Below, piece by piece: positions 946-64,000 of a DNA stretch of 64,000 nt (positions are counted from its first letter, which is position 1; every line of letters starts with the position of its first letter). The translations under genes and the position numbers were made by a program. The stretch spans positions 22,333 to 86,332 of the forward strand of contig CANCEU010000002.1 of the NCBI GenBank assembly GCA_947375185.1, read 5' to 3'. The notes under the pieces are model-generated. The model was not told the DNA's origin. It searched no databases and saw nothing but the letters and a program-made list of their open reading frames with translations. Source of the stretch: Chitinophagaceae bacterium (GTDB taxonomy: Bacteria > Bacteroidota > Bacteroidia > Chitinophagales > Chitinophagaceae).

Positions 946-2259
946 ATGAAGAAGACCTTTCCAATCATATTTACTTTAATTGCATTATCCATTATTGGTA
1001 TTTTGTTTATTCAAATTACCTGGTTACAAGGTTTGATGATTCTTTCAAAAAATCAGTTATCAGATAAAGTGAATCAGTCTGCCGTTGCTGTATCGGGCGA
1101 AATAAGTAAAAAAATGAATAGTGGATTATCACTTCGCTTTCCAAAAAGACACCAAAGTTTGGGCGAAGAGTATCATATACATAGTTTTGATGAATCAACC
1201 ATTGCAGATATTTATAATCAAAATGAACTAAATACAAGTATCAAAGCAGCGTTGAATAAATATGGCATTACAGATTTAAACTATGAATTTGCAGTAACGG
1301 ATAAAAAAGGAAATATTGAAATTAAAAGTTCGAAATTTGAGGATGCATATTCGGACGAGTTAAATACTTTGCAAGTGAGGCTTCCGGTAATTCCTCAAGA
1401 CATTATCGAGCCAGTTGGGCCTTTTGAAACCATCATTATATTAGTGCCAAAAGTAAAGTTGTATTTATTGCATTCTTTACAATGGGTTATCATGGGGGCC
1501 ATTTTATTTGTATTAATTGTATTGGCTGCGTTCTTTATTACGGTAAGGTCATTGTTCACGCAGAAAAAATTAAATGAAATTAAGCGCGACTTTATCAATA
1601 ATATGACACATGAATTAAAGACCCCGCTAGCTACCATTTCTTTAGCAGTGGATGCCTTAAAAAGTCCAAAAGTTCAAGGGGATATAAAGTCGGTTGATTA
1701 TTTTAGTTCGATAATAAAGGAGGAGAATGTGCGGATGAATAAGCATGTAGAAGTTATTTTACAAGCTGCGCAATTAGAGAAGAAAGAGTATAAATTAAAT
1801 AAGCAACCCGTTGATATTCACGATATGTTATTCGGTGTTTTGGATAGTTTTAAATTACAATTGGATGCGAAGCCTTCGCAAATTCATACTAATTTTGAGG
1901 CAGATCCATCTGAGATTGAAGCCGATCAAGAATATATGTTGCATGTATTTTCAAATTTGATTGATAATGCAATTAAGTATTCCAAAGAATCTATTGATTT
2001 AACCATAACTACTTTAACCCTGCCAGCTGAAATTCAAATTATTATTGAGGACAAGGGGATAGGTATGAGTGCAGATACAGCAAAGCATATTTTTGAAAAA
2101 TTCTATCGTGCCCATACTGGCAATATCCATAATGTGAAAGGTTTTGGCCTTGGAATGAGTTATGTTAAATGGGTAATTGATATTCACAAGGGCAAAATTA
2201 AAGTACAAAGCGAAGAGGGAGTGGGTACCAAAATGATTATTACTTTACCTGTTGCCTAA
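946..2259 (+). CDS. Two-component sensor histidine kinase
   Basis: Two TM segments, H-box FINNMTHELKTPLATISLAVDAL, N-box NLIDNAIKYS, G-boxes DKGIGMS and GFGLGMSYV. Confidence 0.95.
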   Translation: MKKTFPIIFTLIALSIIGILFIQITWLQGLMILSKNQLSDKVNQSAVAVSGEISKKMNSGLSLRFPKRHQSLGEEYHIHSFDESTIADIYNQNELNTSIKAALNKYGITDLNYEFAVTDKKGNIEIKSSKFEDAYSDELNTLQVRLPVIPQDIIEPVGPFETIIILVPKVKLYLLHSLQWVIMGAILFVLIVLAAFFITVRSLFTQKKLNEIKRDFINNMTHELKTPLATISLAVDALKSPKVQGDIKSVDYFSSIIKEENVRMNKHVEVILQAAQLEKKEYKLNKQPVDIHDMLFGVLDSFKLQLDAKPSQIHTNFEADPSEIEADQEYMLHVFSNLIDNAIKYSKESIDLTITTLTLPAEIQIIIEDKGIGMSADTAKHIFEKFYRAHTGNIHNVKGFGLGMSYVKWVIDIHKGKIKVQSEEGVGTKMIITLPVA

Positions 2260-3523
2260 TCCAAAATAAACAACCATCGCCATAACTTAAAAATCGGTAT
2301 TCGTTTGCAATAGCATGTGCATAAATGTCTCGCCATTTTTCGCCAGTAATTGCAGCAATAATAAGTAAGAGGGTTGATTTAGGCTGATGAAAGTTTGTAA
2401 CCAATGCGTCACAAATTTTAAAAGTATAACCAGGAGTAATCATTAACTGCGTTTTTGTAATTAGTTTATCACAATTGTTAGCACTCAATAATGCTATTAA
2501 AGCTTGTAATGCATCCTGCACAGATATATTTTGGTCTAGTAATTCATAGGCATCCCATTGGCCTAAATTTAATTCGTTAAATCCTATATGGGTACTATGT
2601 AGTTGATAATATAAAAATGCTTTCACTCCCATCCAATACATTGACTCAAGTGTGCGTAAACTTGTGGTCCCTACGGCGATAATTGGCGAGTTGATTTTAT
2701 TTATATTTTCTAATAAATGTTGAATAACAGTATTTCCCACTTCAATAAATTCAGCATGCATTTCGTGCGCATCAATGGTGGCTGACTTAACAGGCATAAA
2801 AGTACCTGCACCAACATGAAGCGTTACATATTGTTGTTGAATTTTTTTTTGACGTAAACTTTCAAATACTTCGATGTTAAAATGTAATCCTGCAGTAGGA
2901 GCAGCTACAGAACCTTCTTCAATGGCATAAGTAGTTTGATATCGGTCTTTGTCTTCTTCGTTTGCTTTTCTCTGTATATAAGGTGGAAGTGGAATATTGC
3001 CAATGCTATTTAATATTTCAGAAAAATTAAATGTTATATTATCCCAACTAAATTCAATTATAAATTTTCCAGCTTCTTGTTTTATTTTTTTTGCGCTAAT
3101 AATGATAGGAGTTTCATTAATAATAACTTCTTTTAATAAAACATCTTCCTTCCATTTTTTTGCACCTCCAACTAAACATACCCATTCAACTTTACCTGTT
3201 GCCTGCATGGCTAATAAAACGGGTGTGAATTTTTCAGTTGGCTCTAAACAAAAAATTTCTATCTGACTATTCTTATTTTCTGCATGTGCATTGGTTTTTT
3301 CAAATAATATTCTTGCTGCAATTACTTTACTATTATTAAACAACATTGTAGCGTTTGTGGGAATATAGTCGGCAATATTCAAGTAGGTATGTTCGGCCAC
3401 AATAGCCTGATCCCAAATCAAAAGCTTGCTTCCTGAACGATTTGGAGCTGGGGAATAGGCGATTTGCCCATCTGGAAGTGCATAATCAAAATCCTCAATA
3501 GCCAATTTGGGTTTAATAAACAT
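2240..3523 (-). CDS. queA: S-adenosylmethionine:tRNA ribosyltransferase-isomerase
   Basis: TTYAIEEGSVAAPTAGLHF, LHVGAGTFMPVK, VGTTSLRTLES, TNFHQPKSTLLLIIAA. Start placed at the internal ATG (MFIKPK) rather than at 3538. Confidence 0.95.
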   Translation of the reverse strand: MFIKPKLAIEDFDYALPDGQIAYSPAPNRSGSKLLIWDQAIVAEHTYLNIADYIPTNATMLFNNSKVIAARILFEKTNAHAENKNSQIEIFCLEPTEKFTPVLLAMQATGKVEWVCLVGGAKKWKEDVLLKEVIINETPIIISAKKIKQEAGKFIIEFSWDNITFNFSEILNSIGNIPLPPYIQRKANEEDKDRYQTTYAIEEGSVAAPTAGLHFNIEVFESLRQKKIQQQYVTLHVGAGTFMPVKSATIDAHEMHAEFIEVGNTVIQHLLENINKINSPIIAVGTTSLRTLESMYWMGVKAFLYYQLHSTHIGFNELNLGQWDAYELLDQNISVQDALQALIALLSANNCDKLITKTQLMITPGYTFKICDALVTNFHQPKSTLLLIIAAITGEKWRDIYAHAIANEYRFLSYGDGCLFWIRQQVK

Positions 3524-3527
3524 GGGA

Positions 3528-3535
3528 CAAAGGTA
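3528..3535 (-). promoter_or_regulatory. Bacteroidetes -7 element TACCTTTG of queA
   Basis: Exact TAnnTTTG on the minus strand, 4 nt upstream of the queA ATG. Confidence 0.6.
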
Positions 3536-3588
3536 CATTCGACAGGTTTTATAGCCTAATTAACGAGTTATAAACCTAAAAATGGGGG

Positions 3589-3597
3589 TTATCCACA
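3589..3597 (+). promoter_or_regulatory. Perfect DnaA-box sequence TTATCCACA
   Basis: Exact 9-mer match in the queA-mraZ intergenic region. Confidence 0.5.
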
Positions 3598-3714
3598 GTT
3601 CTTAACATCTAAATTCATAGAAAATCGGCTAAATATCGGCCAAATCAATGCTGGCATTGATTATTAGGCTGGTTCATTTCTTGTGGAAAACTACAATGGT
3701 CTATTTTGCCATTA

Positions 3715-3751
3715 AAAGTGGTAAAAAGTGTTATTTTGTGTGAACAAGTGG
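3715..3751 (+). promoter_or_regulatory. Putative MraZ operator: four 10-bp-phased GTG boxes
   Basis: AAAGTGG-TAA-AAAGTGT-TAT-TTTGTGT-GAA-CAAGTGG; GTG at 3718, 3728, 3738 and 3748, just upstream of mraZ. Confidence 0.75.
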
Positions 3752-3775
3752 TAAAAATCACGTTAATTATTCACA

Positions 3776-4234
3776 ATGACAGGCTTTCACGGAGAATATC
3801 AATCAACTATCGACGCTAAAGGGCGTTTCCTAGTTCCCGGCAGTTTGAAAAAACAGCTGGCTGAAGGGGAGACTCGCTTTATTGTTAGTAGAGGATTTGA
3901 AAAGTGCTTGACACTTTATCCGATTAATAGCTGGCAAAAGATATTAGACAAGATTAGCCAATTGAACGACTTTGATCCTAAGGTGCGTCAGTTTAGACGT
4001 CAATTTTTGGGTGGAGCAACTGAGGTAGAAATGGACAGCGCAGGCCGTTTATTATTACCTCCAACGTTAAGAGAGTTTGCTTTGCCTGGTAAGGAAATTG
4101 TGTTGGCTGCCGCATTAGATCGTTTCGAGATCTGGGATGCAAGTACTTATAAACAGCTCTTTGAGGATTTCTCTGCAGATGAATTTAGTAATCTGGCGCA
4201 AGAAGTAATGTCAGGCATTAATAAAAAAGATTAA
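3776..4234 (+). CDS. mraZ: Transcriptional regulator MraZ
   Basis: GEYQSTIDAKGRFLVPGSLKK and VEMDSAGRLLLPPTLREFA; first gene of the dcw cluster. Confidence 0.97.
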   Translation: MTGFHGEYQSTIDAKGRFLVPGSLKKQLAEGETRFIVSRGFEKCLTLYPINSWQKILDKISQLNDFDPKVRQFRRQFLGGATEVEMDSAGRLLLPPTLREFALPGKEIVLAAALDRFEIWDASTYKQLFEDFSADEFSNLAQEVMSGINKKD

Positions 4235-4240
4235 GGAAAA

Positions 4241-5173
4241 GTGATGACCAACCCTACATCCAACATTCCTCAATCTGACTATCATGTGCCGGTATTATTT
4301 CATGAAACAATGGAATATCTTAACATAATACCAAATGGTGTTTATGTGGATGCAACATTTGGTGGAGGTGGACATAGTAGAGGCATTTTATCAAAGCTAG
4401 GACCTAAGGGTCGATTGATTGCTTTTGATCAAGATGCGGATGCTAAAAACAATTTACCAAATGATGACCGTGTTTTATTTGTTCCAGAAAATTTCAGGTA
4501 CCTGCAAAGGTTTTTAAGATTGCACAAAATTGACCAAGTAGACGGAGTGCTTGCTGACTTAGGTGTTAGTAGTCATCAGTTTGACGAGGGGTCAAGAGGT
4601 TTTTCAACTAGGTTTGATGGCCCATTTGATATGAGAATGGATCAGCGCCAAGATAAAACTGCTGCGCAAGTAATAGAAACTTTAAGTGAAACAGCATTGC
4701 ACAAAATGTTTGAACAGTATGGCGAAGTGACGAACTCGAAAACTTTAGCAAAGCATATTGTTGAAAATCGCAAGCACGTTAAACTTAACACGGTACAGGA
4801 TTTTAAAACACTAATTGCACCTGTCGTAAAAGGAAATCCTAATAAATATTGGGCGCAAGTTTTTCAAGCCATTCGAATTGTAGTAAACGAGGAGATGGAG
4901 GTATTAAATGAATTTCTTGCACAATTGCCAATGGTGATAAAGCCAGGTGGTCGTGCGGTAATCATTACATTCCATTCAATTGAAGATAGAATTGTAAAGA
5001 ATGCTTTTAAAGTAGCGCCCGAAGAAGAAAACAAAACCAACCCATTTCTCTCCAACCCTAGAGAAGTGATTTGGAAGATCATTACAAAAAAACCTGTAGT
5101 GGCTTCTGAAAAAGAGATGAAAGAAAACAATCGAAGCAGAAGCGCAAAATTGCGTGCTGCCGAAAGATTATAA
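4241..5173 (+). CDS. rsmH: 16S rRNA (cytosine1402-N4)-methyltransferase
   Basis: HVPVLFHETMEYL, DATFGGGGHSRGIL, DLGVSSHQFDEGSRGFSTRFDGPFDMRMD. Confidence 0.97.
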   Translation: MMTNPTSNIPQSDYHVPVLFHETMEYLNIIPNGVYVDATFGGGGHSRGILSKLGPKGRLIAFDQDADAKNNLPNDDRVLFVPENFRYLQRFLRLHKIDQVDGVLADLGVSSHQFDEGSRGFSTRFDGPFDMRMDQRQDKTAAQVIETLSETALHKMFEQYGEVTNSKTLAKHIVENRKHVKLNTVQDFKTLIAPVVKGNPNKYWAQVFQAIRIVVNEEMEVLNEFLAQLPMVIKPGGRAVIITFHSIEDRIVKNAFKVAPEEENKTNPFLSNPREVIWKIITKKPVVASEKEMKENNRSRSAKLRAAERL

Positions 5174-5178
5174 ACCGT

Positions 5179-5529
5179 ATGTCCGTACCCGAAAAACAAG
5201 CCCCTAAGAATGCACTTAAAAGCATTCTAAATTACCAGTGGATTGTCATGAACATTCCTTTCTTTTTGTTCTTGGCATTCATCGCTATTCTTTACATAGC
5301 GAATGGGCATTTTGCGGACAAAACAGTTCGACAAATAAATGCTTCTCAAAAACAAATCAAAGAATTACAGTATGAATATAAAACGATTAAGGCCGATTTA
5401 ATGCGCCGTAGTCGTGCTTTAGAAATTGAAAATGCAATGGAGCCGTATGGTTTAGGTGTTGCAAAAGAAATGCCTATTCGTATTCCATTAGAAAATAGAG
5501 TTTATAACATTCAAACCGCTTCAAAATAA
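5179..5529 (+). CDS. FtsL-like cell division protein
   Basis: Small single-TM protein with a coiled-coil segment between rsmH and the PBP gene. Confidence 0.75.
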   Translation: MSVPEKQAPKNALKSILNYQWIVMNIPFFLFLAFIAILYIANGHFADKTVRQINASQKQIKELQYEYKTIKADLMRRSRALEIENAMEPYGLGVAKEMPIRIPLENRVYNIQTASK

Positions 5530-7637
5530 TGGATGTAAAACGCGACATATTATGGAGGGTTTATTTAAGCTACATAGTGGTAGTGGCTATTTGTATTGTT
5601 ATTATTGGGAAAGCTTTTTATATTCAACAAATTCAAGGAGCTTATTGGAAAGGATTAAGTGATAGCTTGCATCAAAGGATCATTTCAATTCCAGCAGAAC
5701 GTGGAACTATTTATAGTGAAGATGGACAAATGTTAAGTACTAATATGCCAACATTTGACATTTTAATTGATTTTAGAGTGGCTCCATTACACGATAAAAA
5801 TGGTAAATTATTTAGAGAAAAAATTGATACGGTTTGCGATTCGCTTGCATACTTGTTTAAAGACAAATCTCCATTACAATATAAGGAAGAGTTAACAAAA
5901 GCTTTCGAAGCGAATGAAGGAAATTATGAATTAAAAAAGAAAATCGATTATCATCAATATTTAAAAATTACAGGATTTCCTTTATTTAAATTAGGAAGGT
6001 ATAAGAGTGGATTGATTGCGATTGAAAAAAACACGAGACTAAATCCATATGAAAATATTGGATACAGAACAATAGGGTTGGCAAGAGATGAAAATAAAGT
6101 AGGATTAGAAAGTGCTTATGATACTGTATTGGCAGGTCAAAATGGAAGACAATTGGTGCGCGCCATTGCAGGAGGGGTAACGGTTCCAGTACAAGAAGGA
6201 GAATTTGAAGTGGCACCTGAAACAGGAAAAGATATTGTAAGCAACATTGATGTGTTTATTCAACAGGTTACCGAAAAGGCATTAAATAAAATGATGGTTT
6301 CAAATGATGCACAGACTGGGGTTGCAATGGTAATGGAAGTAAAGACAGGTAAAATAAAAGCTATCGCCAATTTGGGTAAAGTTAGTGAAGGGAGATACCT
6401 TGAAAATTTAAATTATTCAACGCGAGTTACTGAGCCAGGATCTACCTTTAAATTGGTTACTTTATTGAATGCTTTAGAACATGGTGTTAAATTAGAGGAT
6501 AAAATTAATATAGAAGGTGGTTTATGGAGCTATGGTGGTAAGCAAGTAAAAGATGCTGAAACAAGTGGTACTCATGAAACAACAGTATTACATGCCTTTG
6601 AAGAAAGTTCCAATGTAGGTATGGCAAAATTAATCGTTAATAATTTTGTTTCTAATCCGCAGGTTTATTACAAGCAACTTTCAAAATTAAGATTGGATTC
6701 TACTTCGGGTATTGATTTGCAAGGTGAAGGCATACCTCAAATTACAAGACCTGGTGATAAGTTGTGGGCGGCTACCACACTTCCATGGATGGGATTTGGT
6801 TATAATATTGCAATTGCGCCGATTCAAACATTAACCTTGTATAATAGCATTGCTAATAATGGTATTATGATGCGCCCTTATTTAGTAAACGCAATAAAAG
6901 AGGAAGGACGAGTGATTAAATCAATTGAGCCAAAGGCTTATCCTTGGTCAGTTGCATCTCCTTCGACCATAAAATCATTGCATACTGCATTGGAAGGGGT
7001 ATGCATCAATGGAACTGCGAAAAAATTATTTGCCAATAGTTTATATAAAGTGGCTGGTAAGACAGGGACAGCGTTGGTTTCAAATGGTACGAAATTTTAT
7101 ACGGAAGGAATTTTTCAATCTTCTTTTGTAGGTTATTTCCCAGCAGAAAATCCTCAATATACCATTGCTGTAATTATCATCAATCACCCACATGCGGCTA
7201 ATCACTTTGGTGCATCAGTGGCTGGTCCAGTTTGGAAAGAGATTGCTGACAGATTGTATTCAACATACATTCAAAATAAAATGGAATTGGCGCCTAGTTT
7301 ACATGTAAAGGATAGCCAACTATTTAATTATTCATTATCGAATGCTGCATTTAAAACAATAGTGAAAAACGTACCTATTCCTTTTGTTGATTCATCAATG
7401 ACTAAAGAATGGGTTACGGTGCAAGGAGCTGGCAATAAGGTTAAAGCTAGTCCGCAATTAGTTGCTGATAGCACCATGCCAAATATAATTGGCATGAAAT
7501 TGCAGGATGCTTTGTGGATTTGTGAAAAAAAGGGATTGCAAGTGAAGTGTCAAGGTAAAGGGAAAGTCATTGCACAAAGTGTTGCGCAAGGTCAAGTAAT
7601 TATTAAAGGTCAACAAATTCAAATTCAACTAAACTAA
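5529..7637 (+). CDS. ftsI: Penicillin-binding protein / FtsI-like transpeptidase with C-terminal PASTA domain
   Basis: N-terminal TM, RGTIYSEDGQMLS, transpeptidase motifs PGSTFKLVT and KTGTA, C-terminal PASTA MPNIIGMKLQDALWICEKKGLQV. Confidence 0.95.
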   Translation: MDVKRDILWRVYLSYIVVVAICIVIIGKAFYIQQIQGAYWKGLSDSLHQRIISIPAERGTIYSEDGQMLSTNMPTFDILIDFRVAPLHDKNGKLFREKIDTVCDSLAYLFKDKSPLQYKEELTKAFEANEGNYELKKKIDYHQYLKITGFPLFKLGRYKSGLIAIEKNTRLNPYENIGYRTIGLARDENKVGLESAYDTVLAGQNGRQLVRAIAGGVTVPVQEGEFEVAPETGKDIVSNIDVFIQQVTEKALNKMMVSNDAQTGVAMVMEVKTGKIKAIANLGKVSEGRYLENLNYSTRVTEPGSTFKLVTLLNALEHGVKLEDKINIEGGLWSYGGKQVKDAETSGTHETTVLHAFEESSNVGMAKLIVNNFVSNPQVYYKQLSKLRLDSTSGIDLQGEGIPQITRPGDKLWAATTLPWMGFGYNIAIAPIQTLTLYNSIANNGIMMRPYLVNAIKEEGRVIKSIEPKAYPWSVASPSTIKSLHTALEGVCINGTAKKLFANSLYKVAGKTGTALVSNGTKFYTEGIFQSSFVGYFPAENPQYTIAVIIINHPHAANHFGASVAGPVWKEIADRLYSTYIQNKMELAPSLHVKDSQLFNYSLSNAAFKTIVKNVPIPFVDSSMTKEWVTVQGAGNKVKASPQLVADSTMPNIIGMKLQDALWICEKKGLQVKCQGKGKVIAQSVAQGQVIIKGQQIQIQLN

Positions 7638-9100
7638 TGAAAGCATTACAATCCATATTGTTTGGTGTTGCACTTAGGGAAGTAGTTGGGTCTACTCAAA
7701 TGCAAGTGAACGATATACAAATCGATTCAAGAAAAGTTAATGTAGGTGGTGTTTTTGTTGCAATTAGTGGTGTACAAGTGGATGGCCATGAATTTATTAC
7801 TATAGCAATTGAAAAAGGAGCGACGGTTATTGTTTGTGAGCATTTGCCGGAAAATATAGTAAATGGCATTACGTATTTAGTTGTAGAGAATGCGCAAGAG
7901 GCGGTTGCAATTATGGCGCATCAGTTTTATAATGAAGCATCTACAAAAGTTAAATTGGTGGGCGTAACAGGAACCAATGGTAAAACGACTGTAGCAACTT
8001 TGTTGTTTAAGTTGTTTTCGGAGTTGGGCTATAAATGTGGTTTAATAAGTACTGTTCAAAATCAGATAGGGGAACAAATTATTCCGTCAACTCATACTAC
8101 ACCAGATGCAATTCAATTGAATGCATTGTTGGATAAGATGGTACAAGAAAATTGTACTCATGTATTTATGGAATGCAGTAGTCATGCAATACACCAGCAT
8201 AGAATTACTGGTTTGCAATTTGCGGGTGGTGCATTTACTAATATTACGCATGATCACCTTGATTATCACAAAACATTTGAAGAATATGTTAGTGTAAAAA
8301 AAGCATTCTTCGATCATTTGCCTTCTACTGCATTTGCATTGTCCAATTTAGATGATAAAAATGGTGCAAACATGTTGTTGGATACAAAAGCAAGAAGACT
8401 GACTTATGCTTTGCATGCACCTGCAAATTATAAAGGTAAGATATTGGAAAACCAATTAACCGGTTTAGTAATGCTGGTGAATGATATAGAAGTGCATTGT
8501 AGATTAATTGGAACTTTTAATGCATATAATTTTTTAGCTGTATATGGCATTGCAGTTCAGCTTGGAGAAGTGTCGGAAAAAGTATTGATAACATTAAGTG
8601 CATTGACGGGTGCTGAAGGTAGATTTGATTATATTATTAGCAGTACAAATATCATTGGAATCGTTGATTACGCACATACGCCAGATGCATTAGAAAATGT
8701 ATTAACGACCATCGCAAAGTTAAGAAAGGGAGATGAAGATGTTATTACTGTAGTTGGATGTGGAGGCGATCGAGATAAAACAAAGCGACCAATTATGGCT
8801 CAGGTTGCATGCGATTTAAGTACTAAGGTTTTTTTAACAAGCGACAATCCACGTTCAGAGAATCCAGATACTATTTTAAATGATATGGAACAGGGATTGA
8901 CAAGTGCAGCAAAAAGAAAGTATATCAAAATTGCAGATCGTAAGGAAGCAATAAAGGCAGCAATTAGTATTGCTAAAGCTGGGGATATCATTTTAGTAGC
9001 TGGCAAGGGCCATGAAAAATATCAAGAAGTTAAAGGTGTGAAAACGCACTTTGATGATAAAGAGCAATTACAAAATCTATTTAAAGAATTCGAAAAATAA
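7637..9100 (+). CDS. murE: UDP-N-acetylmuramoyl-tripeptide synthetase
   Basis: [49 protein letters not shown]. Confidence 0.96.
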
Positions 9101-9104
9101 TCCC

Positions 9105-10421
9105 ATGCTATACCAATTTTTTTCATTTTTAGATAAGCATTTTAGTATACCAGGATTAGGGGTATTCCAATTTTTGACATCAAGAATTGCCATGTCAATT
9201 TTACTATCCTTATTTATTGCTACTGTTTTTGGTAAAAAAATGATTTTGTTTTTACAAAAAAAACAAATTGGAGAAACGGTTCGTGAATTAGGATTAGCGG
9301 GCGAACAACAAAAAAAGGGTACACCAACAATGGGTGGCATCATTATATTATTAAGTGTATTAATTCCTACTTTATTATTTGCCAACTTAGATAAAGTATA
9401 TATCAGATTAATGATACTTTGTACAGTTTGGTTGGGGGTAATTGGTTTCTTAGATGATTATTTTAAAATTCGTGCTCGTAAAGAAGCGCAAAATAAAGGA
9501 GAGGCGTATAAAAAACAAAACAGTGATGGGTTGGCCGGTCTTTCAAAAATCATTGGTCAAGTGGGTTTAGGAATTATTATCGGAGTTACGCTTTATTTTA
9601 GCAATGCAGTTACAGTTGAAAGAGAAATTGTGCCAAATACTGCAATTGCAGCGAGCTTGCAAAAGGGTGAGCATATTGCGAAAGATACCAATGTAATTGT
9701 TAGAAATGTGAATGGAGTAGAGCGAAGGTTTGTAAAAGTAAAGACACCCATTACAACCATTCCTTTTGTAAAGAATCATGAATTTAATTATTCAAAACTA
9801 GTAAGCTGGATGGGCCCAGGTGCTGAAAAGTATACTTGGATTGTTTATATACTAGTTGTAACATTTATCGTAACTGCTGTATCAAATGGTGCTAATATTA
9901 CAGATGGTTTAGACGGATTGGCTGCAGGAGTAAGTGCTATTATTGGTGCTGCTTTGGGCATATTTATTTATGTAAGTGGTAACTATGTTTTTGCAGATTA
10001 TCTAAATGTCATGTATATCCCAAATCTTGGTGAATTATCCATTTTTGTGGGTGCGTTTGTCGGAGGCTGCATTGGGTTCTTATGGTACAATGCTTATCCT
10101 GCGCAAGTGTTTATGGGGGATACAGGAAGTTTAGCCTTGGGTGGAATTATTGCGTCTTTGGCAATTATTGTACGTAAAGAATTATTGATACCTATTTTTT
10201 GTGGAGTGTTCTTGATTGAAAATTTAAGTGTGATTTTACAAGTGAGTTACTTTAAATATACTAAAAAGAAATATGGGGAAGGTCGTCGTATATTCTTGAT
10301 GAGTCCATTACACCATCATTATCAAAAGAAAGGTTTTCATGAAAGTAAGATTGCAGTTCGCTTTTGGATTATTACCATTTTGCTAGTAGTAGCATCTATA
10401 TTAACGCTTAAAACTCGATAA
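9105..10421 (+). CDS. mraY: Phospho-N-acetylmuramoyl-pentapeptide transferase
   Basis: [41 protein letters not shown]. Start set at ATG 9105 after the murE stop. Confidence 0.96.
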
Positions 10422-10424
10422 AAA

Positions 10425-11765
10425 ATGGCAAAGAAATTAGTCATATTAGGAGCGGGGGAAAGTGGAATAGGTACTGCTTTATTAGCAAAGCAACAAGGGT
10501 ATGATGTATTCGTATCTGATGCAAGTGCTATTCAACCAAATTTTCAAAAAGAATTAGTCGAAAATCAAATTGAATTTGAATCAGGCATCCATAGTGAAGA
10601 AAGAATTTTGGCCGCGGATGAAGTAATGAAGAGTCCTGGTATTCCTGAAAAAAATGAAATGGTTAAAGCCATTCGTTCAAAAGGTATTCCCGTGATTAGT
10701 GAAATTGAATTTGGATACAGATACAAAGGGAAATCCAAAATTGCGGCTATTACGGGTAGTAATGGAAAGACAACAACCACATCCTTGTTATTTCATATTT
10801 GTCAAGTTGCTGAGCAGGATGCAGCAATGGTTGGAAATATTGGGTTCTCATTTGCAAGACAAATTGCGCAAGACCCAAAATCATTGTATGTAATTGAAGT
10901 AAGCTCTTTTCAATTAGATGACATAAAATACTTTAAGCCGGATATCGCAATATTATTAAATATTACTGAAGATCATTTAGACAGATATAATTATGAATTT
11001 GAACGCTATGTAAAAAGCAAATTTAGAATTATAGAAAATCAAACAGAGACAGATTGTTTCATTTATTGTATCGATGATGAAATAATTGTAAAACACTTAG
11101 CACTACTAACTTATAATACTAACCCACTACCATTCTCTATGAAACAAGAATTAAAAAAAGGAGGCTACATCAAAAACGATCAAATGATGTTGAAAATCCA
11201 AGAAGAACGCGTAACTATGAGCATTTATGATTTTGCTTTAAAAGGAAAGCATAATGCCTATAACACAATGGCTGCAAGTATTGCGGCTACAACTTTAGGA
11301 ATTAGAAAAGAAAAAATTCGTGAAGCAGTAAGTAATTTTCACAATCTTGAACATAGAATGGAATTTGTAGCAACTGTAAAAGGCGTTGATTTTATTAACG
11401 ATAGCAAAGCGACAAATGTAAATAGTACTTGGTATGCGCTAGAAAGCATGCAAAAGCCAACTATCCTAGTGCTAGGAGGAGTTGATAAAGGAAATGATTA
11501 CTCATTAATCGCCGAATTGGTTAAGGAAAAAGTAAAGGCGATTGTTTGCATGGGAACTGATAATAAAAAAATAATGGATTTCTTTAAGGGAATTGTTCCT
11601 GTTATTGTTGAAGCGGAAAGCGCAAGTAAAGCAGTGACAGCATCTTTTGATCTTGCTGAAAAAGGAGAAGTTGTTTTATTAAGTCCGGCTTGTGCAAGTT
11701 TTGACTTATTTAAAAATTATGAAGACAGAGGTCGTCAATTTAAAGCTGCAGTAAAAGAATTATAA
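10425..11765 (+). CDS. murD: UDP-N-acetylmuramoylalanine--D-glutamate ligase
   Basis: GAGESGIGTALLAKQQG, AITGSNGKTTTTSLLF, NDSKATNVNSTWYAL, LSPACASFDLFKNYEDRGRQF. Confidence 0.96.
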   Translation: MAKKLVILGAGESGIGTALLAKQQGYDVFVSDASAIQPNFQKELVENQIEFESGIHSEERILAADEVMKSPGIPEKNEMVKAIRSKGIPVISEIEFGYRYKGKSKIAAITGSNGKTTTTSLLFHICQVAEQDAAMVGNIGFSFARQIAQDPKSLYVIEVSSFQLDDIKYFKPDIAILLNITEDHLDRYNYEFERYVKSKFRIIENQTETDCFIYCIDDEIIVKHLALLTYNTNPLPFSMKQELKKGGYIKNDQMMLKIQEERVTMSIYDFALKGKHNAYNTMAASIAATTLGIRKEKIREAVSNFHNLEHRMEFVATVKGVDFINDSKATNVNSTWYALESMQKPTILVLGGVDKGNDYSLIAELVKEKVKAIVCMGTDNKKIMDFFKGIVPVIVEAESASKAVTASFDLAEKGEVVLLSPACASFDLFKNYEDRGRQFKAAVKEL

Positions 11766-11767
11766 TA

Positions 11768-13102
11768 ATGTTTAATCAAGTCAACGATAAGTTATTTTCT
11801 CAAATGCCTACTATCAGTGGCGTAAGAGAACACTTGGATCAAAGAACTAGAGGGGATAAATATATATGGGGGTTAGTAATTGTTTTGTCCCTAGTTTCTA
11901 TTTTGGTTGTATATAGTGCAACTGGGTCTTTAGCTTATAAATCGTTGGGCGGTAATACAAGTAAGTTTTTATTCAAGCAGGTTGGTTTTACGATGGTTGG
12001 TTTGGTTATTATTTTTGGATTACATCGTATTAATTATACCATGTTTTCAAGAATTGCGTCCATCCTTTATGCTATTTCCATTCCATTGTTAATTTATACT
12101 TTATTTTTTGGTGCAAAAATAAATGATGGTAGCAGATGGATTAAATTACCAATTATACATTTGACATTTCAAACGAGTGACTTGGCAAAACTGGCTTTGT
12201 TCATGTTTATATCTAGAACATTGAGTAAGAAGCAGGATGTTATTAAAGATTTCAAAAAAGGATATTTGCCAGTGATTATTCCGGTATTCCTAACTTGTTT
12301 ATTGATCATGCCAGCAAATTTATCTAATGCCTTATTAACTGGAGCTACCTCACTTTTATTAATGTTTATTGGACGTGTGAGTTTTAAACATATTGGGCTT
12401 ACCATTATGGTAGCAATGGTTCCTGTATTGATATTAATTAGTGTTGCAGTGGCTACTCATAAAACAGGAAAAACTAGTTCTGTAGATGAGGATAAGCCTG
12501 TAGTTGCAGAAAAGGGTAAAATATTTGTTCGGTTTAATACTTGGGTAAGTAGGATTCAAGATTTTATGTATCCGAATGAAAAGGAAGTGCCCTATCAAGT
12601 TCAGCAAGCAAAAATTGCAATTGCAAATGGCGGTATTTTTTTTGGCTTAGGACCGGGCAATAGTCGTCAAAGAAATTTTTTGCCACAAGCATACAACGAT
12701 TTTATATACTCTATTATTATTGAAGAGTATGGACTTGTTGGAGGTATATTTATCATGTTTGTATACCTGGTATTTTTATTCAGATGTATTCGAATATTTA
12801 GAAGATGTCCATATGCGTTTGGTGCTTTTCTTGCTTTGGGATTAAGTTTCACTTTAATTATTCAAGCTATTGCAAATATGGCTGTCAATGTGAATATTGT
12901 TCCAGTGACAGGGGTGACTTTACCATTAGTTAGCATGGGAGGTAGTTCATTTATATTTACTTGTTGTTCTATTGGTCTAATATTAAGTGTTGCAAGAAAT
13001 GTGGAGCAATTAGAGGGTAATGCGCCAGTAGAAACTGAAATTGAAGTTCCTGAAGAAGAAATAGTTGAATCTCAAAATAATCCAATTGCTACGAATGCCT
13101 AA
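11768..13102 (+). CDS. ftsW: Cell division SEDS protein FtsW
   Basis: Polytopic SEDS protein: DGSRWIKLP, GPGNSRQRNFLPQAYNDFIYSIIIEEYGLVGG, PLVSMGGSS. Confidence 0.95.
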   Translation: MFNQVNDKLFSQMPTISGVREHLDQRTRGDKYIWGLVIVLSLVSILVVYSATGSLAYKSLGGNTSKFLFKQVGFTMVGLVIIFGLHRINYTMFSRIASILYAISIPLLIYTLFFGAKINDGSRWIKLPIIHLTFQTSDLAKLALFMFISRTLSKKQDVIKDFKKGYLPVIIPVFLTCLLIMPANLSNALLTGATSLLLMFIGRVSFKHIGLTIMVAMVPVLILISVAVATHKTGKTSSVDEDKPVVAEKGKIFVRFNTWVSRIQDFMYPNEKEVPYQVQQAKIAIANGGIFFGLGPGNSRQRNFLPQAYNDFIYSIIIEEYGLVGGIFIMFVYLVFLFRCIRIFRRCPYAFGAFLALGLSFTLIIQAIANMAVNVNIVPVTGVTLPLVSMGGSSFIFTCCSIGLILSVARNVEQLEGNAPVETEIEVPEEEIVESQNNPIATNA

Positions 13103-14207
13103 TCCAATTCGCATAATCATTGCTGGTGGTGGTACGGGAGGACATATTTTCCCGGCAATTGCGGTAGCGCAGGCTATTGTAAAATTAGAACCGAATGCAG
13201 CAATATTATTTGTAGGTGCCAAAGGTAAAATGGAAATGGAAAAAGTGCCACAAGCTGGCTATGAAATTATTGGTTTAAATATTGCAGGATTAAACAGATC
13301 GAATATATTTAAAAATTGGAGTCTTCCATATAAGCTTATTGAAAGTTTTTTTCAGGTAAGAAATATTTTTAAACAATTTAAACCGGATGCTGTATTTGGC
13401 GTAGGAGGTTATTCAAGTTTTCCTGTTTTGAAATTTGCGCAGACTAAAAATATTCCCACTTTTATCCATGAGTCAAATGCTTTTGCTGGAAAATCAAACA
13501 TTTTACTTGGTCAAAATGCAACAATGGTTTTTACGGGAACAAAGGGAATGGAAAAATTCTTCCCTGCACATAAAATTATGGTTACAGGAAATCCTGTTCG
13601 AAAAAATATTATTGATGGTTTAAACACAAAAACGGCTTCCTTATTGAAATTTGGTTTGTTACCTGCTAGAAAAACTTTGTTAATTATTGGAGGAAGCCTA
13701 GGTGCGTCTTCAATCAATAAAGCGATCAAAGAAAACCTAGCAAAATTTGTTGAATTAGATGTCCAATTAATTTGGCAAACTGGAAAGCCAAACGCAAGTG
13801 ATTTTGTAGATGCTGCGTCAGGCTTTTCAAATGTTTATGTCAATTCATTTATAGATGACATGGGTGCAGCATACAATGCAGCTGATTTTGTTATTAGTCG
13901 ATCTGGCGCTATGGCAGTTGCAGAAATTTGCATTACTGAAAAGCCTTGTGTATTTGTTCCGTATCCTCATGCGGCAGAGGATCATCAAACATTTAATGCA
14001 ATGTCTTTGGTAAATGAAAGTGCCGCATTAATGGTGGCTGATAATGAAGTAGATGAAAAATTATTCTTAGCAATAAGTAAACTGGTAAAAGACGAAACCT
14101 TGTGTCATACAATGCAAGCAAAAATTAAATCTTTTGCTCGAATCGATGCCGATGAAGTAATAGCAAAAGCAATCATTAATAAAATAGAAATTACAAATAT
14201 CAAATAG
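13095..14207 (+). CDS. murG: UDP-GlcNAc:lipid I GlcNAc transferase
   Basis: IIAGGGTGGHIFPAIAVAQAI and ISRSGAMAVAEICITEKPCVFVPYPHAAEDHQ; start at ATG 13095 overlapping the ftsW end. Confidence 0.96.
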   Translation: MPNPIRIIIAGGGTGGHIFPAIAVAQAIVKLEPNAAILFVGAKGKMEMEKVPQAGYEIIGLNIAGLNRSNIFKNWSLPYKLIESFFQVRNIFKQFKPDAVFGVGGYSSFPVLKFAQTKNIPTFIHESNAFAGKSNILLGQNATMVFTGTKGMEKFFPAHKIMVTGNPVRKNIIDGLNTKTASLLKFGLLPARKTLLIIGGSLGASSINKAIKENLAKFVELDVQLIWQTGKPNASDFVDAASGFSNVYVNSFIDDMGAAYNAADFVISRSGAMAVAEICITEKPCVFVPYPHAAEDHQTFNAMSLVNESAALMVADNEVDEKLFLAISKLVKDETLCHTMQAKIKSFARIDADEVIAKAIINKIEITNIK

Positions 14208-61520: not shown

Positions 61521-62948
61521 ATGGCTAAAAGTGCAGATTTAATTTGGAGTAATTGTTTGAAGATCATTAAAGATATTGTCGAATGGCAGCACTTTAAAAC
61601 ATGGTTCGAACCAATACAGCCCGTAGACTTGAAAGAGCATGTTTTAATGATTCAAGTTCCAAGCCAATTCTTTTATGAATATATCGAAGAGCACTATGTT
61701 AATTTATTAGCAAAAACTTTAAAGAGAGAATTAGGAAAAGAAGCAAGATTAGAATACCGTATCATGGTTGATAGCGGTAACAATAAAAAAGGTTCAATGG
61801 ATGTGCCTGCAAGTGGCATGAAGACATACAATAACAATGAAATGAATTTCCCATTGGTTATTGACAATCCTGTAAAGAATCCGTTTGTGATTCCAGGATT
61901 GAAAAAAATGCAAATTGATCCTCAGTTAAACCATAATTATACATTTGATTCTTTTATAGAAGGGGATTGTAACAGGGTTGCGCGCCGAGCTGGTAAAACA
62001 GTGGCTGAAAAACCAGGTGCAAATTCATTTAATCCATTAGTAATTTATGGTGGGGTAGGTTTAGGTAAAACACACTTAGCACAAGCAATTGGTAATGATG
62101 TTAAACGCATTCATCCAAATAAGGTGGTTTTATATGTGAGCTCTGAAAAATTTATTAATCAATTCCAAGATCATAGTCGCAATAACGCTATCAACGATTT
62201 TATACATTTTTATCAATTGATTGATGTATTAATTATTGATGATGTACAGTTCTTCAATAGAGCTGAAAAATCTCAGGATGCCTTTTTCGCCATCTTTAAC
62301 CACTTACATCAAAGTGGAAAGCAGTTGGTGTTAACATCGGATAAAGCACCTAAGGATTTGGAAGGATTGCAAGAAAGATTATTAAGTCGTTTCCGTTGGG
62401 GTTTAAGCGCTGACATTCAAGTGCCAGACTATGAAACACGTATTGAGATATTAGAAAAGAAGATGAAGGCAGATGGTTTAGAAATGCCTAAGGAAGTAGT
62501 GAAGTATGTAGCTTATAATATCAATACTAATGTTAGAGAACTAGAAGGTGCGTTAATATCATTATTAGCACAGTCTTCTTTGAATAAGAAAGAGATTGAT
62601 GTTGAATTAGCGAAAAAGGTACTCCGCAACTTTGTGAAAACAAGTAGCAAGGAAATTACCATTGACGCTATTCAAAAAATGGTTTGTGAATTCTTTGAAG
62701 TGCCTTATGACAAGTTATTGCAAAAAACACGTAAGCGTGAAATTGTACAAGCGCGTCAAATTACCATGTATTTGGCTAAAGCATTTACCAAGAACTCATT
62801 AAAGACAATAGGAGAGCACTTTGGTGGTCGTGATCATACTACGGTAATTCACTCTTGCCAAACGGTTAAAGATTTAATGGATACTGATTCTATGTTCCGC
62901 GAAAATGTAATGGAGCTAACGCAAAAAGTACAACTAGCAGCTATGTAA
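61521..62948 (+). CDS. dnaA: Chromosomal replication initiator DnaA
   Basis: VIYGGVGLGKTHLAQAIGNDVK, VLIIDDVQFFNRAEKSQDAFFAIFNHLH, C-terminal GGRDHTTVIHSCQTV. Confidence 0.97.
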   Translation: MAKSADLIWSNCLKIIKDIVEWQHFKTWFEPIQPVDLKEHVLMIQVPSQFFYEYIEEHYVNLLAKTLKRELGKEARLEYRIMVDSGNNKKGSMDVPASGMKTYNNNEMNFPLVIDNPVKNPFVIPGLKKMQIDPQLNHNYTFDSFIEGDCNRVARRAGKTVAEKPGANSFNPLVIYGGVGLGKTHLAQAIGNDVKRIHPNKVVLYVSSEKFINQFQDHSRNNAINDFIHFYQLIDVLIIDDVQFFNRAEKSQDAFFAIFNHLHQSGKQLVLTSDKAPKDLEGLQERLLSRFRWGLSADIQVPDYETRIEILEKKMKADGLEMPKEVVKYVAYNINTNVRELEGALISLLAQSSLNKKEIDVELAKKVLRNFVKTSSKEITIDAIQKMVCEFFEVPYDKLLQKTRKREIVQARQITMYLAKAFTKNSLKTIGEHFGGRDHTTVIHSCQTVKDLMDTDSMFRENVMELTQKVQLAAM

Positions 62949-63366: not shown

Positions 63367-63435
63367 ATTTTAGAGAACTTTTGGTTCATTATACCTAATA
63401 ATAGAAACAGAATTGGGTGATTTTAGAGAACTTTT
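63367..63435. repeat. 16-bp perfect direct repeat ATTTTAGAGAACTTTT (63367-63382 and 63420-63435)
   Basis: Two exact copies, 53 bp apart start to start, between the tRNA-Pro terminator and the recombinase stop codon. Confidence 0.85.
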
Positions 63436-64000
63436 AGATTGTTCTAATCAGTTGAGACACTTTTAAGGTAGTATTCACACTTGTCTTCGTCATTCTTGAA
63501 ACCTCACGAATTGATAATCCTTTTTCAAGGTATTTTATAACATCGGGGTATTTGTTTAATGTCTTCTCCTTACTATCTCCCGAGTTCTTTGGACGACCCA
63601 GTATAACACCTTTATCTTTTAGATTTTGTAACGCTACTTTTACCCTTGTCTTTAGTGTAATTGTTTCCATCTTGGCTATTTCAGCCATTAAAGACAGAAT
63701 CAGTCCTGTAATATGATTTTCTTTACCTGATTCGTCTAATGTATGAAGGTTAAGATTTTGTATGTATAATGAAACTTTGTTTTCAGTAAGAAATGATAGG
63801 AGTTGATGAAACCCAAGGCTCGTTCTGCTGATACGGCTGATTTCCCAACAAACTACGATTTGAGGTTTCTTCTGTAGAACTACATTCTTTAATTGTGTTA
63901 TTCCTTCTCTATCTTCATTTTTTTTGGTGCCTGATATTGTCTCTCTAATAGTATCAATAATTTCCCATTCATTTTTCTTACAAACATCAATCAATAAGTT
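63434..64000 (-). CDS. Serine site-specific recombinase (resolvase/invertase family), N-terminus outside window
   Basis: VVCWEISRISRTSLGFHQLLSFL, LSLMAEIAKMETITLKTRVKVALQNLKDKGVILGRPKNS, C-terminal HTH GLSIREVSRMTKTSVNTTLKV; frame open to the window end. Confidence 0.92.
   Translation of the reverse strand, partial: NLLIDVCKKNEWEIIDTIRETISGTKKNEDREGITQLKNVVLQKKPQIVVCWEISRISRTSLGFHQLLSFLTENKVSLYIQNLNLHTLDESGKENHITGLILSLMAEIAKMETITLKTRVKVALQNLKDKGVILGRPKNSGDSKEKTLNKYPDVIKYLEKGLSIREVSRMTKTSVNTTLKVSQLIRTI

Follow-up and report, generated by a model that had tools for sequence, protein, structure and literature searches.

Few bacterial regulators are as widely conserved as MraZ, yet to our knowledge the site that it binds has been established in only a small number of phyla. 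The operator described for the Mollicutes protein has the form (AAAGTGKN3)3 (PMC5282649), and in M. genitalium MraZ represses the cluster (PMC8475190). A fragment of B. cenocepacia DNA with four 7-nt repeats separated by 3-nt spacers was bound by MraZ in EMSA, and repeated GTG was noted in B. subtilis, E. coli and mycoplasmas (PMC7761207). Binding or expression data were found for no MraZ of the Bacteroidota.

The DNA analyzed here, a 64,000-nt stretch from a Chitinophagaceae bacterium (hereafter the window), carries mraZ on the forward strand (3776..4234), preceded on the same strand by four direct boxes. Box 1, AAAGTGG (3715..3721, GTG at 3718), is near-invariant across the genus and the family; box 2, AAAGTGT (3725..3731, GTG at 3728), is kept together with box 3 as GTGTTANTTTGTG in Chitinophagaceae; box 3, TTTGTGT (3735..3741, GTG at 3738), is family-conserved; and box 4, CAAGTGG (3745..3751, GTG at 3748), is present in the own genus and optional elsewhere in the family. 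The third box deviates from AAAGTGK. The mraZ ATG at 3776 follows 24 nt past the end of the array (3751), and the description in the earlier note, four GTG boxes in exact 10-bp phase 24 nt before this ATG, proved right to the base. The array is non-random. At the GTG frequency of the window, only about 3e-6 four-in-phase GTG runs are expected in the 237-bp intergenic region between mraZ and its divergent neighbour queA (2240..3538, reverse strand; PF02547, 6e-93), and a three-GTG run in 10-bp phase arose in none of 5,820 dinucleotide shuffles (291 distinct mraZ upstreams, 20 shuffles each). The pattern GTGN7GTGN7GTG has a single site in the 2.28-Mb assembly, searched on both strands (the genome being 93% complete), and this site is the mraZ array.

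For the analysis of conservation, mraZ upstreams were drawn from genus, family, order, class and phylum sets of relatives, the rank names (e.g., Chitinophagaceae, Bacteroidota) being inferred from named matches such as Sediminibacterium and Chitinophagaceae MAGs. Within the own genus four boxes are present in 71 of the 73 distinct upstreams and three boxes in the other two, and three or four boxes are present in 24/27 upstreams of the next relative set (L031-L060). The array core inside Chitinophagaceae reads GTGGKAAAAAGTGTTANTTTGTG, with the stretch GTGTTANTTTGTG between the boxes nearly invariant; the consensus box outside the family is AAAGTGGKAAAA, which recurs phylum-wide at exact 10-bp spacing. 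Among the 185 mraZ-bearing relatives outside Chitinophagaceae, at least two boxes were found in 165 and at least three in 105, while 20 had no two in-phase GTGs, suggesting that some of the operators are degenerate or located elsewhere. The number of boxes ranges from two to six among relatives in steps of exactly 10 bp, and in 191 order, class and phylum upstreams a GTG pair spacing of 10 bp was counted 305 times, compared to 12 times for 9 bp and 12 times for 11 bp.

The arrays are confined to mraZ. In the search of 41 relatives with the family-type array, 23 of the 25 own-genus genomes gave one match per genome, at mraZ; the two without a match had no detectable mraZ either, and both are incomplete. 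The three-box pattern GTGGNNAAAAGTGGNNAAAAGTGG, searched with at most one mismatch in 149 class genomes, yielded 22 matches in 20 genomes, all of them (22/22) directly upstream of mraZ as checked against the mraZ coordinates, and the reversed-pattern control yielded zero matches in the same 149 genomes. Twenty-two genomes were without a MraZ match, and 18 of these retained rsmH. A run of at least three boxes within 700 bp upstream of rsmH was present in 0/18 of these mraZ-less genomes, as against 105/185 of the mraZ-bearing ones (Fisher 8e-7). Runs of two occurred in the same 700 bp in two of the 18, so that runs of at least two amount to 2/18 versus 165/185 (Fisher 4e-12).

The product of mraZ (152 aa) matches Pfam PF02381 (9e-34) and TIGR00242 (above cut-off) and possesses two DxxxR motifs, D13-R17 and D87-R91; residues D13, K15, G16, R17, D87 and R91 are invariant among 45 relatives. 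Its AlphaFold model has a pLDDT of 92.9, and a structure search with this model returned only MraZ structures at E < 1e-7, the PDB matches including 9r4j (M. genitalium MraZ on its promoter) and 9sz7 (a four-box promoter). MraZ is intact and, according to the model, has a MraZ-like fold. After mraZ the division and cell wall (dcw) cluster continues with rsmH/mraW (4241..5173, forward strand; PF01795, 2e-92), and the remainder of the cluster, standard in make-up as read from ORF translations, extends on the forward strand over 5179..14207 with an ftsL-like gene, a gene for an ftsI-like PBP, murE, mraY, murD, ftsW and murG. The genes of 5179..14207 are likely targets of the array.

Comparison with the Mollicutes operator (PDB 9R4J, 9SZ7) reveals likeness in the GTG core, in the 7-nt box with a 3-nt spacer, in the direct repeats of 10-bp period close before mraZ, in the presence of one array per genome and in the related MraZ fold (TM about 0.8). 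Unlike Mollicutes, the studied locus has TTTGTGT as box 3, a long dcw cluster that includes genes for wall synthesis, and additional putative DnaA boxes. The MraZ site of B. cenocepacia is also built of four 7-nt repeats with 3-nt spacers, but it belongs to another phylum, lies downstream of the -10 element and overlaps the start site, and no DnaA module has been reported there. The E. coli operator, known for its TGGG repeats, shares the 10-bp GTG register, GTGGGAAATT-GTGGGGCAAA-GTGGGAA; its three boxes were reported downstream of -10 (PMC7761207). The array of other Bacteroidia, in contrast, stands upstream of a putative -7 motif. The mraZ upstream of E. coli K-12, as read from its sequence, is GTGGGAAATTGTGGGGCAAAGTGGGAA, with the GTG register likewise of 10 bp. 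The contrast drawn in the earlier note, where the array was held to be of Mycoplasma rather than E. coli type, falls with this observation, and the Bacteroidota consensus AAAGTGGKAAAA fits both published forms. Since the operators of Mycoplasma, Burkholderia and E. coli and the array all have one register, the array would represent the known kind of MraZ operator and not a Mycoplasma-like exception. A single operator grammar, AAAGTGGKAAAA every 10 bp, thus covers the Bacteroidota and takes in the forms known from E. coli and Mycoplasma. The central proposal of the same note, a MraZ autoregulatory operator, is supported: the array is mraZ-specific, absent where mraZ is absent and kept from the genus to the phylum, which is decisively the opposite of the outcome set beforehand as contrary to the proposal, namely boxes unconserved upstream of mraZ in relatives.

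Considering the phase, the conservation, the specificity for mraZ, the co-loss and the intact fold and motifs of the protein, we regard the array as, very probably, the MraZ operator of mraZ and the dcw cluster. It behaved as such an operator in the sequence tests of phase, position, conservation, co-loss and cognate protein, and binding by MraZ is predicted. Spaced by one helical turn, the four direct GTG boxes would offer the same DNA face to adjoining subunits of a MraZ oligomer. This oligomer would occupy the promoter region and repress transcription of mraZ-rsmH-ftsL-ftsI-mur, resulting in an autoregulatory loop. Both the binding by MraZ and its sign, i.e., repression, are what we infer from the solved relatives.

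A different regulator that uses GTG direct repeats, for instance a C-protein-like one such as HsdC of Mollicutes, might bind the array, mraZ being merely its target. HsdC does recognize a direct repeat whose GTG core makes it similar to the MraZ motif, and its motif is bound in vitro by MraZ itself; however, the spacing in the HsdC repeat is off by one nucleotide, and the reverse does not hold, HsdC failing to bind the MraZ motif (PMC5282649). Besides, the array follows the presence and absence of mraZ phylum-wide and was found nowhere else, as is expected of an autoregulator, making the involvement of another protein highly improbable. We likewise give very little credence to the boxes being a core promoter or a translation-initiation sequence, read by RNA polymerase or the ribosome and not by a regulator. 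Near-invariance of GTGTTANTTTGTG between the boxes in Chitinophagaceae would agree with such a role, as would the putative -7 motif of other Bacteroidia, TAnnTTT(G/AC), fixed at +14 to +16 relative to the last GTG. But the number of periodic boxes varies between two and six with the 10-bp step kept exactly, and GTG arrays stand at mraZ only, not at promoters generally, and are lost along with mraZ. The shortened motif TAnTTTG inside GTGTTANTTTGTG was rejected as a promoter motif, having no enrichment in the sense orientation in gene upstreams (26 sense and 26 antisense occurrences, 20.6 in shuffled sequences). With the putative -7 motif so placed, the MraZ operator of other Bacteroidia would cover the spacer and the -33 region and thereby exclude the polymerase. 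Upstream of own-genus genes the motif TAnnTTTG is enriched (54 sense, 34 antisense, 19.5 shuffled), and within 200 bp upstream of mraZ it was found in 0/73 own-genus sequences, with 9.7 expected.

Further upstream, the queA-mraZ gap contains 9-mers of the DnaA-box type. The window's only copy of TTATCCACA lies at 3589..3597 (forward strand), and TTTTCCACA lies at 3682..3690 (reverse strand), 36 bp before the first GTG. The corresponding genus sites, TTWTCCACA at -127 to -129 and TGTGGAWAA at -36/-37 from the first GTG, each occur in 68/73 genus upstreams, and the reverse sites equal TTWTCCACA in about 30/32. The sites at 3589 and 3682 face inward and constitute islands of conservation amid diverged sequence. 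A DnaA-consensus 9-mer, TTATTCACA (3767..3775, forward strand), abuts the mraZ ATG and is TTATTAACA in most of the genus, its role being doubtful. In total, 3 of the window's 15 TTWTNCACA 9-mers fall in the 237-bp gap (P about 2e-5). At 3589..3619 (forward strand) a degenerate tandem remnant of TWATYCACA can be read (TTATCCACA, CTTAACA, ATTCATA, at 10-12 bp spacing). In other Chitinophagaceae the tandem TWATYCACA series is clear, with 3-4 copies spaced by 10, 11 or 12 bp, about -165 to -200 from the mraZ ATG (L031-L060, L141, L142, L148, L188), and ATYCAC was seen 73 times in these upstreams versus 4.6 expected, its spacings lying solely near multiples of 10.5.

The DnaA-like sites stay fixed to mraZ, and the queA-mraZ distance varies from 219 to 941 bp, or queA is not found; ownership of the upstream sites by queA was rejected because its distance varies while that to mraZ holds. 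A probe independent of mraZ, TTATCCACAN{75,105}TGTGGAWAA, applied genome-wide to 199 family genomes, matched in 54 of them (reversed control zero). Among the 30 inspected loci with the pair (L397-L426), 29 were upstream of mraZ, and the GTG array adjoined in 28 of those. The exact 11-then-10 ATYCAC triple was too strict a probe, giving 2 matches in 71 genomes, one of them placed at mraZ. The window also encodes a DnaA protein of 475 aa (61521..62948, forward strand; TIGR00362, 4e-157), with the box-reading motif DHTTV of domain IV in its translation; the ORF list includes a resolvase/invertase-like ORF nearby (63434-63994, reverse strand). The 9-mer itself points to DnaA as the candidate binder of the upstream sites. 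As in DnaA-regulated promoters with boxes outside oriC, the 9-mers are perfect, TTATCCACA/TTWTCCACA, keep their positions in the promoter region and stand away from the origin given by GC skew. Our search of the open-access literature found no report in which DnaA boxes accompany a MraZ operator, and what is new here is a putative DnaA-box module standing beside the MraZ operator in Chitinophagaceae at a fixed distance from mraZ.

Two other assignments of these upstream sites have to be weighed. The CAC-phased sites could be further MraZ boxes in reverse orientation, serving, e.g., the divergent transcription of queA: CAC is GTG reversed, and the upstream copies are likewise phased, near 10.5 bp. 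Against this, the letters after the core match those of DnaA sites (TGTGGAWAA; TWATYCACA) and not those of MraZ boxes (GTGGKAAAA), the CAC spacing alternates 10/11 instead of 10/10, and the positions are tied to mraZ and not to queA, so that we consider the assignment unlikely. That the DnaA-like sites mark oriC beside mraZ, with the operator adjoining incidentally, appears very doubtful. The clustering of DnaA-consensus 9-mers in the gap (3 of the window's 15, P about 2e-5) would suit an origin, and a tandem series of 10/11 bp resembles oriC arrays. The GC skew, sampled in one complete relative (G016), has positive values over the stretch that starts at about 2.74 Mb and passes 0 to reach 0.7 Mb, and for the most part negative values at 0.8-2.25 Mb, which puts the origin near 2.3-2.7 Mb, whereas mraZ is located at 2.99 Mb, inside one replichore; the skew origin of this one sampled genome is 0.3-0.7 Mb from mraZ, and oriC next to mraZ was rejected on these grounds. 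In the same genome dnaA is near assembly position 1 and the skew origin near 2.3-2.7 Mb, hence the oriC of this group apparently lies elsewhere than at dnaA.

The relation of the putative DnaA-box module to the MraZ operator admits a reading that we hold less firmly than that of the operator itself. Quite possibly, if short of probably, the head of the dcw cluster in Chitinophagaceae is a composite control region where DnaA and MraZ act together and where division and wall genes are tied to replication initiation. DnaA would act through the inward-facing pair of boxes about 90-100 bp apart and through the upstream tandem DnaA-box series, and the promoter, being without a canonical -7 element, would fit one that needs such an activator. 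The connection of replication initiation with the division/wall cluster is an old open question, for which the DnaA-box module would provide a concrete and testable link.

Some related motifs were observed outside the family. The sequence TTWTCAACA, DnaA-like but off consensus, is present in 36/87 upstreams of other Bacteroidia, often right before the first MraZ box (-11), e.g., in L277, L286 and L264. In loci of the class and order sets (e.g., L196, L197), TGTGGAWAA recurs at -16, -26 and -36 from the first GTG; its 10-bp steps are offset from the MraZ boxes by half a helical turn.
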